From the IMG/VR virus record IMGVR_UViG_3300020129_000172, positions 1 through 42,114 of that record: a stretch of 42,114 bases of DNA. The stretch is one strand, 5' to 3'. Numbering within the stretch: the stretch's first letter is position 1; every line of letters starts with the position of its first letter. The notes under the pieces are model-generated. The model had not been told where the DNA came from. It searched no databases and was given only the letters and a program-made list of their open reading frames with translations. Below, one piece after another: positions 35,331 through 39,479 of this stretch. The stretch comes from a virus. A program made the position numbers and the translations under genes.

Positions 35331-36221
35331 ATGAATCCGCGCTTTCCGATTTACATCGTGTCGAAGGGTCGGCATCAACCGACACGCCGCTTGACGTCGC
35401 GGGCCTTCGAAGCGATGGGCGTGCCGTACTTCATCATCGTGGAAGCCGCCGAGTACGACCTGTATGCGGCAGGCATTGATGCGAAGAAGATCCTCGTCCT
35501 CGATCCGGCGTTTCAGGACCGCTACGAAACCTTCGACGACTTAGGCACCAGCAAGAGTAAGGGACCGGGCGCCGCGCGGAACTTTGCATGGACGCATGCA
35601 AAGGCATCCGGCGCTCCATGGCACTGGGTCATGGATGACAACATCCGCCGGTTCTCCCGGCTGCAACACAATTCGAAAACGCGGGCCGGAGACGGCACGA
35701 TCTTCCGCTGCATGGAGGACTTCTGCCTGCGGTACGCCAATGTGGCGATGGCTGGTCCGAACTACGAGCACTTCGTGACGCGCAAGGTCGACACGACGCC
35801 GCCGTACGTGCTGAATACGCGGATCTACAGCTGCAACCTGATTCGCAACGATGCGCCCTTCCACTGGCGTGGCCGCTACAACGAAGACACGGACCTCTCG
35901 CTGCAGATGCTGAAACGCGGCTGGGTCACGGTGCAGTTCAATGCGTTCCTCCAGAAGAAGATGGAAACGCAGACGGTGAAAGGCGGCTGTGATCGGGACT
36001 TCTACGCCGTCGAAGGGACACGGCCGAAGTCGGAAATGCTCGTCCGCATGCATCCGGACGTGGCGCAGCTGGTCTGGAAGTTCGGCCGCTGGCACCATCA
36101 CGTCGACTATCGGCCGTTCAAGCACAATCGCCTCATCCTGGCCGACGGTGTCGTGGTGGCCGACGGGCCGGACGAATACGGGATGGTGCTGGTCGACAAG
36201 CCCAAAGGCATCGGCGCATGA
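35331..36221 (+). CDS. TET-associated-type glycosyltransferase (TAGT family)
   Basis: This is 296 residues starting directly after the ParB-like stop. The family pattern is strong: FPIYIVSKGRH at the N-terminus, YFIIVEAAEYDLYAAG, GAARNFAWTHA, then the acidic motif HWVMDDNIRRF (Asp102, Asp103), NTRIYSCNLIRND, WRGRYNEDTDLSLQMLKRGW (Glu185, Asp186, Asp188) and a late KGGCD. In the literature this family is predicted to add sugars to oxidised (hydroxymethyl) bases in phage DNA. No TET/JBP oxygenase is present in this genome, so the acceptor is uncertain. Start and length fit the family. Confidence 0.8.
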   Translation: MNPRFPIYIVSKGRHQPTRRLTSRAFEAMGVPYFIIVEAAEYDLYAAGIDAKKILVLDPAFQDRYETFDDLGTSKSKGPGAARNFAWTHAKASGAPWHWVMDDNIRRFSRLQHNSKTRAGDGTIFRCMEDFCLRYANVAMAGPNYEHFVTRKVDTTPPYVLNTRIYSCNLIRNDAPFHWRGRYNEDTDLSLQMLKRGWVTVQFNAFLQKKMETQTVKGGCDRDFYAVEGTRPKSEMLVRMHPDVAQLVWKFGRWHHHVDYRPFKHNRLILADGVVVADGPDEYGMVLVDKPKGIGA

Positions 36222-36694: not shown

Positions 36695-38424
36695 CCGACG
36701 GCGCCACGCAGTATGCCCGCGACGTGTTGGCGGGTCGCATCGTGGCCGGCCGCAAGGTCCGGTTGGCGTGTCAGCGGCACATCGACGATCTGAAGTTCCG
36801 CCGCGAGCGCGGCTTGCTCTGGCGGGCCTCGGAAGTGCAGCGCGTCGTCGACTTCTTCCGCGAAATTCTCTGCCTGCCGGAAGAAACCGCCAGCGATGAA
36901 ATTGTCTCATCGACCGTGCAGGCGACGACCGGCACGCCGTTCGTGCTCCAACCGTTTCAGGTCTTCATCGTCGGCAGTCTGATGGGCTGGTATACGCGGC
37001 AAGGGTATCGCCGCTTCCGTGACGGATATCTCGAGATAGCCAAGGGTGGCGGCAAAACGCCGCTCGGGGCGGGCTTGATGCTCTACCTGCTGGTCGCGGA
37101 TGGCGAGCGCGGGGCGCAGGTCTACTTCGCGGCAGTGACGCGCGAACAGGCACGGCTGGCGTTTGCCGATGCCGAAAAAATGGTGCAGGCGTCTCCGCAT
37201 CTGCATGCGCTCATCACGCAGACGGTGAACAACCTGGCGGTGGTGTCGAGCGGCTCCTACCTGCGGGCGATCTCATCGGAGAAACGGGGCCTTGATGGCA
37301 AGCGGGTCCACGGCTGTCTGATCGACGAACTGCACGAACACGCGACACCGGTCGTCGTCACCAAGATGCGGCGCGGTACGAAAGGTCGACGCAACGCGCT
37401 CGTACTCCGAACCACTAACTCCGGCTTCGATCGATCGTCGGTCTGCTGGCAACAGCACCAGTACTCCGTGCAGGTCTTGGAGGGCAGCGTCCGCGACGAG
37501 GCGTGGTTTGCGTTCATCTGCGGCCTCGATCCGTGTGCGGCGTGTCTGCGGGCCGGTCGAGACTTTCCGGCCGACGACTGCGAGCACTGCGACAGCTGGA
37601 AGACCGAAGGCCCGCATTGGCTGAAAGCGAATCCGAATCTCGGCGTGTCGTTGTCGTGGCAGTATCTGCGCGAACTGGTCCGGCAGGCGGCCGGGATGCC
37701 CGCCGCCGTGTCCGACCTGCTGCGCTTCAACTTCTGCGTCTGGACACAACAGCAGCTGCGGTTCCTCGACATGGGCGCGTGGCATGCCTGTCCGCCGATC
37801 GACGAGTCCGATCTGGTCGATGCGACCGTGTATGGCGGACTCGACTTGGGCCAGTCCGACGACCTGTGCGCGTTCGTCCTGCTGTGGGTGTTGGCGGATG
37901 GCCGCATGGCGGTCCGCTCACGGTTCTGGCTGCCATCGGCGGCGCTGCAGCGATATCCGGATCGGCCCTACGATGTCTGGCGCCGCTACGGCCACCTGAC
38001 CGTCACCGACGGCAACATCACCGACTATCAGCAGGTTGAGGATGCCGTCGGCGATGACTGCATCGACTACGGCGTCCGCGAGTGCGCCTTTGACAAACGG
38101 TTCGCCAACCAGATGGCGCAGAACCTGATGGGCCGGGGCATCACCATGATCGACATGCCGCAGGGCTACTTCCTGAACGAAGCCCTGCGGAAGTTGTCCG
38201 ACCTGGTCGCCACCGGCACGCTGCTGCACGGCGACAATCCGATCCTCACCGCCATGGCGGCGAATGCCGTCGTCCGCCATGGGCGGAACAAAACGATCCG
38301 CCTCGACAAGGACACCGCCGCCGAAAAGATCGACGGCATCGCGGCACTGGCGATGGCGATCGGACGCGCTATCGCGGTTCCCCCAGAAGTGCCGGCCGAC
38401 GATCCGAACTTGGTGATCGCATGA
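36691..38424 (+). CDS. terL: Terminase large subunit (HK97-like)
   Basis: In this 577-residue protein the ATPase domain has Walker A LEIAKGGGKT (Lys122, Thr123) and Walker B GCLIDELHEH (Asp212, Glu213). The nuclease domain has GGLDLGQSDD (Asp385) and a final AAEKIDGIAALAMAIGRA. Between them a four-cysteine cluster (Cys282, Cys285, Cys297, Cys300: PCAACL and DCEHCD) forms a likely zinc knuckle that is uncommon in this family. The size fits. With the HNH protein upstream this supports cos-type packaging. Confidence 0.93.
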   Translation: MTDGATQYARDVLAGRIVAGRKVRLACQRHIDDLKFRRERGLLWRASEVQRVVDFFREILCLPEETASDEIVSSTVQATTGTPFVLQPFQVFIVGSLMGWYTRQGYRRFRDGYLEIAKGGGKTPLGAGLMLYLLVADGERGAQVYFAAVTREQARLAFADAEKMVQASPHLHALITQTVNNLAVVSSGSYLRAISSEKRGLDGKRVHGCLIDELHEHATPVVVTKMRRGTKGRRNALVLRTTNSGFDRSSVCWQQHQYSVQVLEGSVRDEAWFAFICGLDPCAACLRAGRDFPADDCEHCDSWKTEGPHWLKANPNLGVSLSWQYLRELVRQAAGMPAAVSDLLRFNFCVWTQQQLRFLDMGAWHACPPIDESDLVDATVYGGLDLGQSDDLCAFVLLWVLADGRMAVRSRFWLPSAALQRYPDRPYDVWRRYGHLTVTDGNITDYQQVEDAVGDDCIDYGVRECAFDKRFANQMAQNLMGRGITMIDMPQGYFLNEALRKLSDLVATGTLLHGDNPILTAMAANAVVRHGRNKTIRLDKDTAAEKIDGIAALAMAIGRAIAVPPEVPADDPNLVIA

Positions 38425-38603
38425 CGGAGTCCCGCAAGCCGGTCGGACGGCCGCGACTGGACCGCAAAGATACGACGACCCGGCTCAGTGTCTCGCTGCC
38501 GTCGCGGCAATATGACCGCTTCTATCAGCAGGCCCAGCACGATCGGATCAGCGTCGGCGAAGCCATCCGCCGCCAGCTGCAGGACGACGACGACGAGGCG
38601 TGA
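38421..38603 (+). CDS. Small ribbon-helix-helix / AT-hook-like protein
   Basis: This is 60 residues from ATG 38421 (ATGA). It contains an AT-hook-like GRPRLDRK and then TTTRLSVSLPSRQYDRFYQQ and ISVGEAIRRQLQ, a CopG/Arc-type ribbon-helix-helix layout. It could regulate the methyltransferase whose start overlaps its stop, or assist packaging. Unproven. Confidence 0.65.
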   Translation: MTESRKPVGRPRLDRKDTTTRLSVSLPSRQYDRFYQQAQHDRISVGEAIRRQLQDDDDEA

Positions 38604-39463
38604 TGCATGGGATGGCTCTTTGTGCCGGGATTGGGGGACTGGAACTCGGCGTCGGGTTCGTCCTTGCCGAGTACCGCACCGTCGTGTACGTGGAACGCGA
38701 AGCCTTTGCCGCCGCGCAGCTGGTCGCGCGCATGGCAGCGGGTCAGCTGGCTGCGGCGCCTGTCTGGGACGACGTGCGGACCTTCGACGGCCGACGCTGG
38801 CGTGGCGTCGTGGATTGTGTCACTGCCGGATTCCCCTGCCAGCCGTGGAGTAAAGCCGGACCCGATACCGGCACCGACGATGCCCGCTGGGTCTGGCCGG
38901 ATATCCTCGACCGCATTGGCGAAGTGGGATCCGCGATCGTCTTCTTGGAAAATGTCCCTCCCCTTGTTTCCCGAGGAGGACTGGCCACCGTACTCGGCGG
39001 ACTGGCCGACGGCGGGTACGCTGCGGAATGGGGTTATCTCGCCGCGTCCGCCGTTGGGGCATCCCATGAACGCCTGCGCGTCTTCATCCTGGCCTACCGC
39101 GACGGCCTCCGACTCCGACGACAAGTGGCCGACCCCGGCGAGCCGCGACTACAAGGGCGAGAACGCCAGCGTGCATCTCGATCACGCCAGCGGCCGGAAA
39201 CATCTCGACCAGCTGCCGAACTTCATCGCGTACTGTTTCCCCCTCGCCCCACCGACACCGCCGGGTGGCGTTTCGTCTTCGCCGATCGGCCGGACCTCGC
39301 CCCGGCACTCAGTGCCGCGCATCAACGTCAGCTTTGTGGAATGGCTGATGGGCTTTCCTATCGGCTGGACCGACTCCGGGCTGTCGGCAACGGAGTGGTC
39401 CCGCTACAGGCAGCGTATGCGTTTGTCGCTTTGGCGACTCGCGCAGGCCTGTGGGCAGACTGA
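38603..39463 (+). CDS. C5-cytosine DNA methyltransferase
   Basis: This is 286 residues from ATG 38603 (GTG 38600 possible). Motif I LCAGIGGLELG, motif IV GFPCQPWS (catalytic Cys79), motif VI ENVPPL (Glu116), motif VIII GASHERLRVFILA and the closing RLRAVGNGVVPLQAAYAF (motifs IX-X) are all present. The C-terminal part (DLAPALSA...GMADGLSYRLDR) is normal for one subfamily. The target-recognition region between motifs VIII and IX is Arg-rich and unusually poor in character, and in the +1 frame the same DNA encodes a different methyltransferase-type segment. Its role would be self-protection from host restriction, or supply of modified C. Confidence 0.9.
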   Translation: MHGMALCAGIGGLELGVGFVLAEYRTVVYVEREAFAAAQLVARMAAGQLAAAPVWDDVRTFDGRRWRGVVDCVTAGFPCQPWSKAGPDTGTDDARWVWPDILDRIGEVGSAIVFLENVPPLVSRGGLATVLGGLADGGYAAEWGYLAASAVGASHERLRVFILAYRDGLRLRRQVADPGEPRLQGRERQRASRSRQRPETSRPAAELHRVLFPPRPTDTAGWRFVFADRPDLAPALSAAHQRQLCGMADGLSYRLDRLRAVGNGVVPLQAAYAFVALATRAGLWAD

Positions 39464-39479
39464 ATTAGTGAAGCGTTAA
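38607..39479 (+). CDS. Overlapping +1-frame reading frame with methyltransferase-type TRD pattern
   Basis: This frame is open for 290 codons inside the C5-methyltransferase gene. From about 38925 it reads RSSSWKMSLPLFPEEDWPPY, DWPTAGTLRNGVISPRPPLG, KWPTPASRDYKGENASVHLD and NVSFVEWLMGFPIGWTDSG. These are family-specific phrases (SSSWKTS, GTMRNG, WPTP..RD.KG, FVEWLMGFP.GWTD) seen in the recognition part of related phage methyltransferases. The part before about 38925 is not convincing and may not be translated. ATG 38952 is a possible internal start. Expression could be by internal initiation or frameshift; neither is proven. Confidence 0.55.
   Translation: MGWLFVPGLGDWNSASGSSLPSTAPSCTWNAKPLPPRSWSRAWQRVSWLRRLSGTTCGPSTADAGVASWIVSLPDSPASRGVKPDPIPAPTMPAGSGRISSTALAKWDPRSSSWKMSLPLFPEEDWPPYSADWPTAGTLRNGVISPRPPLGHPMNACASSSWPTATASDSDDKWPTPASRDYKGENASVHLDHASGRKHLDQLPNFIAYCFPLAPPTPPGGVSSSPIGRTSPRHSVPRINVSFVEWLMGFPIGWTDSGLSATEWSRYRQRMRLSLWRLAQACGQTELVKR

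Follow-up and report, generated by a model that had tools for sequence, protein, structure and literature searches.

In M.EcoHK31I, a C5-cytosine DNA methyltransferase, the gene for the alpha subunit contains the coding sequence of the small subunit in a different frame, an arrangement similar to that of its isoschizomer M.EaeI; the beta subunit of EcoHK31I is comparatively short and has an internal start. With regard to motif content, PMC3404938 (citing Lee et al. 1995) describes M.EcoHK31I as two polypeptides, the larger with motifs I–VIII and X and the smaller with motif IX, and assigns the predicted target-recognition domain (TRD) to the large subunit. The small subunit of AquI has motifs IX and X (PMC3404938).

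Here we describe a locus in a virus record of 42 kb, analyzed over a stretch of 42,114 nucleotides (hereafter, the window). Two frames of the same strand (+) are present: alpha in frame 2 (38603..39463; start candidates GTG 38600 or ATG 38603, stop 39463), and a +1 frame that is open throughout as an ORF (beta, 38607..39479). We consider it very probable, from the sequence comparisons below, that the two overlapping frames of this locus code for the two subunits of a C5-cytosine DNA methyltransferase, produced by paired initiation on one mRNA. The original prediction had proposed one locus with two products, which is the most likely reading of these sequences, or a single enzyme with an alternative recognition domain.

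Motif content of the two frames

Alpha has the features of the catalytic half of PF00145 (DNA_methylase), with motifs I, IV (PCQ), VI (ENV), VIII, and X all present. The match to PF00145 (9e-25) covers residues 5–173 only, and the alpha profile matches M.HhaI (1.3e-31) across motifs I–VIII. Motif IV (FPCQPWS, 38831..38851, +) contains the catalytic Cys79, invariant in 78 sequences, and Glu116-Asn117 of motif VI (38948..38953, +) are likewise invariant. Motif X (RLRAVGNGVVP, 39371..39406, +) is also in alpha, and over it the beta frame of the beta-selected loci (see below) contains stops at the expected rate (29 observed vs 29.4 expected).

The remainder of the enzyme lies in the +1 frame, which holds a TRD-like segment and FVEWLMGFPIGWTD. 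Beta matches phrog_1008 (‘DNA methyltransferase’) at 1.5e-29, and the match of the same family to alpha is limited to residues 255–279, which is motif X. Based on the coverage of the PF00145 and phrog_1008 matches, the family motifs are therefore split, with I–VIII and X in alpha and the TRD and IX in beta. The beta TRD-like segment (SSWPTATASD...WPTPASRDYKG..., 39078..39311, +) is conserved in beta, and at the same DNA alpha reads as a low-complexity linker that is partly predicted to be disordered. Beta motif IX (NVSFVEWLMGFPIGWTD, 39324..39374, +) aligns with the segment directly before motif X in the single-chain methyltransferase Papez gp46 (beta profile, E 1.2e-5), and the aligned region includes the EWLMGFP stretch; the alpha reading of this DNA, x[RG][VM]AxG[VIL]P, is the one imposed by the +1 frame. 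Another match of the beta profile is to Darrell gp82 (E 3e-11), a protein encoded separately. These assignments depart from the original prediction, according to which frame 2 held all C5-methyltransferase motifs: motif IX and the recognition domain are both in the +1 frame. The same prediction had read about 38925–39420 of the +1 frame as a methyltransferase-type recognition segment, and this identity is upheld by the phrog_1008 and Papez gp46 matches, but not the confinement to that interval, as relatives are open from the start.

AlphaFold2 modeled nearly all of alpha residues 1–170 with pLDDT 91–98, and the block at 271–280 with 97. Values fell below 50 at residues 181–208 and 239–253, inside the stretches where beta has the TRD and motif IX; these alpha residues are predicted to be disordered. 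Alpha has no recognizable recognition domain, so that calling the one in the +1 frame ‘alternative’ is unsupported. The predicted alpha fold matches M.HaeIII and M.HhaI (1dct and 1fjx). The beta model is of low confidence (mean pLDDT 62, pTM 0.31), with 46–55 at the N-terminus, and with the TRD, motif IX, and C-terminal helices mostly better predicted; predicted order and disorder are thus complementary between the two models. A fold search with beta returned no structural match, and a PDB sequence search with the beta profile returned no relative. Two small phage families without an assigned function, phrog_26627 (71 aa) and phrog_35493 (68 aa), match the betas of two other loci (L107 and L198) over motif IX and the C-terminal tail; they may be pieces of overlapping beta genes that were picked up by annotation.

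Start codons and proposed initiation of beta

Relatives were gathered from IMG/VR as two locus sets: a beta-first (beta-selected) set, and an alpha-first set that was chosen without using beta and comprises 62 non-redundant phage loci (GC 0.48–0.68). An NTG alpha start is followed 4 nt later by a +1-frame ATG in 48 of 63 loci, and about a quarter of the alpha-selected loci do not have the exact tandem start. The second codon of alpha is AAT before G in 44/62 loci, CGT before G in 8/62, and CAT before G in 2/62, each of which yields a beta start codon; AAC occurs there once in 62 loci, and Asn elsewhere is encoded by AAC and AAT in a ratio of 233:115. The beta start codon at +4 is under selection. 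In the window the tandem start reads ATGCATG (38603..38609, +), with the alpha ATG at 38603 and the beta ATG at 38607. A Shine-Dalgarno-like GAGG (38595..38598, +), putatively the ribosome-binding site, lies 4 nt before the former and 8 nt before the latter. Immediately upstream is a small ORF of 60 aa (38421..38603, +) without a match in Pfam or PHROG, the stop of which (TGA, 38601–38603) shares one base with the alpha start (TGATG).

The conserved NTG-N-ATG, the codon-2 bias, ATGCATG with its GAGG, and the TGATG junction together make paired initiation the simplest route to both products. One mRNA would serve alpha and beta; ribosomes would come to the start pair from the upstream gene across the TGATG junction, or by way of the GAGG site, and would initiate at either ATG 38603 or ATG 38607. 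Alpha would provide the SAM-binding and catalytic core (motifs I–VIII) plus motif X, and beta the target-recognition segment and motif IX, the two assembling into one enzyme that would methylate cytosine within a specific motif, the substrate probably being phage DNA. We infer the translation of both frames, the assembly and activity of the enzyme, and its purpose in the phage. The start-codon pair may set the ratio of the subunits.

Beta could instead be a separate protein that is internally started in the window, for example at ATG 38880, as in a subset of relatives and in Mycobacterium phage Darrell; we regard this as unlikely. Stops interrupt the +1 frame after motif I in 27/55 scored beta-selected loci, which must therefore use an internal beta start, so that there are at least two layouts; Darrell gp82 is annotated from the Met of TMRGG, and GAT is over-used at the TMRGG/TMRNG codon. 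Against an internal start in the window, the TMRNG position is Leu (CTG) both there and in the closest relative (L002), and in the window, where the conserved tandem start is present, no stop interrupts the frame after ATG 38607. In most of the 27 interrupted loci an ATG lies at +23/+24 relative to ENV, which is the Met of TMRNG, and the over-use of GAT at that codon is that of the alpha-selected set; this Met could be the internal start of a short beta. ATG 38880 (M92) suits the stop boundary of the beta-selected set, but was rejected as a candidate, there being no conserved start codon at this position in the relatives examined. The internal start at ATG 38952 suggested in the original prediction is unsupported, because this codon is ACG in L002 (81% identical) and the conserved start is 38607. 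Alongside paired initiation, which we favor, an internal start may also be used for a second, shorter product.

Selection on both reading frames

The register of beta is alpha+1 in 81/81 sequences of the beta-first set, the window included. Relative to expectations computed by synonymous shuffling of alpha, stops are missing from the +1 frame of the 62 alpha-selected loci between motifs I and IX (0 observed vs about 259 expected) and are rare over motif X (2 observed vs 27.5 expected), with +2-frame stops near expectation. Loci of this type in bacterial genomes contain 16 +1 stops against 105.6 expected. As a control, single-chain C5-methyltransferases from the same bacterial genomes have 59 observed against 56.8 expected, and the overlapping type in the control's genomes has 3 against 23.6. 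The +1 frame is open more than chance allows, and both frames are under selection. The second same-strand frame of the original prediction, with coordinates that are those of the +1 ORF, is thus real, and constraint on this frame among relatives, on which that prediction was staked, was found.

Both halves of the enzyme could in principle belong to one polypeptide if programmed frameshifting moved ribosomes +1 into beta after motif VIII and back to alpha before motif X. Read in series, alpha I–VIII, beta TRD–IX, and alpha X do give the canonical motif order of a single chain, and in single-chain relatives a single frame carries both IX and X. However, two opposite shifts would be needed, and the codon tables around motif VIII contain no conserved slippery site. 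In a frameshift gene, selection on the second frame is not anticipated upstream of the shift, but in the 62 relatives the +1 frame is stop-free from motif I, with 0 stops observed vs about 183 expected between motifs I and VIII. Neither this upstream openness nor the selected beta start at +4 is needed by a frameshift, and for these reasons entry into the +1 frame by frameshift, as the original prediction had also offered, is unsupported, and frameshifting as the only route is disfavored; we consider the single frameshifted polypeptide very improbable.

Separate beta and alpha products, our preferred reading, also accord with recoding of the window. Scored with a beta profile built from divergent loci, the real sequence reaches 225.9 bits, compared with 85.5 ± 10.9 or 90.4 ± 12.1 (maximum 132.5) for 500 alpha-preserving synonymous recodings of each kind. 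In the reverse test, the alpha score drops from 260.8 to about 55–60 bits.

Per-codon-position entropy locates where each frame matters. Motifs I and IV code for alpha only (alpha third-position entropy 1.4–1.7 bits), and motif IX codes for beta (0.46 among the beta-selected loci and 0.70 among the alpha-selected ones); the TRD and IX segments vary in alpha but are conserved in beta. The stretch between motifs VI and VIII seems to matter in both frames: the Trp and Gln of SSWKTSQ and the Pro of TWPRSG in beta are more uniform than alpha codon usage predicts. For the first ~100 residues of beta, the amino-acid entropy deficit is equalled by the +2 control, and entropy was dropped as proof of constraint here; the beta N-terminus is thus claimed merely to be kept open, rather than selected for its amino acids. 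The near-invariance of FVEWLMG in the beta-first set is partly due to ascertainment, because FVEWLMGF was a search seed. Pairwise substitution counts against L002 alone yielded too few changes to be decisive. That alpha is the sole product, and that the +1 likeness arises from conservation of alpha codons in a GC-rich sequence, can hardly be credited: part of the N-terminal and middle sequence of beta does mirror alpha (recoding leaves about 85 bits) and the motif I and IV entropies are alpha-only, but the stop depletion is frame-specific and absent from the single-chain controls, about 140 bits are lost on recoding, conservation of the TRD and IX segments is seen in beta and not in alpha, and a separately encoded beta homolog exists, so that this reading is already contradicted.

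Genomic context, distribution, and comparison with known systems

Terminase and portal genes neighbor the methyltransferase locus. A gene for a TET-associated glycosyltransferase (35331–36218; PF20691, 7.5e-39; phrog_842) lies upstream of both the terminase genes and the methyltransferase, a hint that 5mC may be channeled into cytosine hypermodification. Because of this glycosyltransferase a TET dioxygenase was looked for; the search gave no match, but it recovered no control either and so carries no weight.

Overlaps of this kind are found in many phages, and as a rule only one half of the methyltransferase appears in standard annotation. Acinetobacter phage ABMM1 and Pseudomonas phage PS-1 are cultured examples of the layout. 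The CDS annotated as a cytosine methyltransferase in Acidovorax phage Alfacinha1 (gp46; L082, 2414–3547) is the beta frame, with the catalytic alpha unannotated, and the same applies to Stenotrophomonas phage SOVA965 (L084, 1986–2486). Many phage ‘orphan’ cytosine methyltransferases are annotated with only one of two subunits that would both be needed, sometimes in the wrong frame, and cloning such genes by annotation could yield an inactive enzyme. We think it reasonably likely that these loci represent a widespread class of phage C5-methyltransferases in which two genes lie on the same DNA nearly end to end, with frames offset by one and an ATGnATG start; the start pair would tie the output of the catalytic subunit to that of the specificity subunit, and the N-terminal half of beta would for the most part be a passenger, tolerated only as it must stay open. 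The loci also form a large natural collection of genes that overlap almost completely on one strand, in which two-frame selection can be measured over many divergent loci. A literature search, with most subscription papers beyond its reach, found no paper on this overlap in phages.

Compared with single-chain C5-methyltransferases (PF00145; M.HhaI, M.HaeIII, phage Papez gp46), the alpha of the window clearly belongs to the catalytic family, but the TRD and motif IX, which single chains have in the frame of motifs I–VIII, are missing from alpha and lie in the +1 frame instead. Papez gp46 (L202, 1489–2316) and Rabbitrun gp78 (L206, 1489–2352) are single-chain, with IX and X in the main frame; their PTPxxxD ‘first TRD’ segment (LLPTPLARDSKG, LFPTPRSADAIAGPD), however, is found in the +1 frame, and they are possibly another kind of frame-split enzyme.

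M.AquI resembles the window in having its catalytic and recognition parts on two polypeptides; however, motif X is on the small subunit of M.AquI, and in alpha in the window. The layout of Mycobacterium phage Darrell gp83/gp82 (L083, 2107–3124) is AquI-like: alpha (gp83) ends just after motif VIII, and all that follows, IX and X included, lies in gp82, a separate overlapping gene in the +1 frame.

The closest precedent is M.EcoHK31I, as judged from its published motif layout: the window likewise has motifs I–VIII and X in alpha, and IX in beta, and would work in a similar way. In PMC3404938 the TRD is placed in the large subunit, whereas in the window a conserved WPTPxxxDxKG segment is in beta, and alpha is modeled with low confidence there. 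Unlike the shorter, internally started beta of EcoHK31I, the beta of the window overlaps nearly all of alpha and starts 4 nt downstream. The window gene is also a phage gene, with no restriction enzyme seen next to the methyltransferase locus. Among the records listed by plasmid searches, none was labeled as an EcoHK31I homolog. With its TRD in beta and its full-length, same-start overlap, the window locus appears to be a variant of the M.EcoHK31I type.
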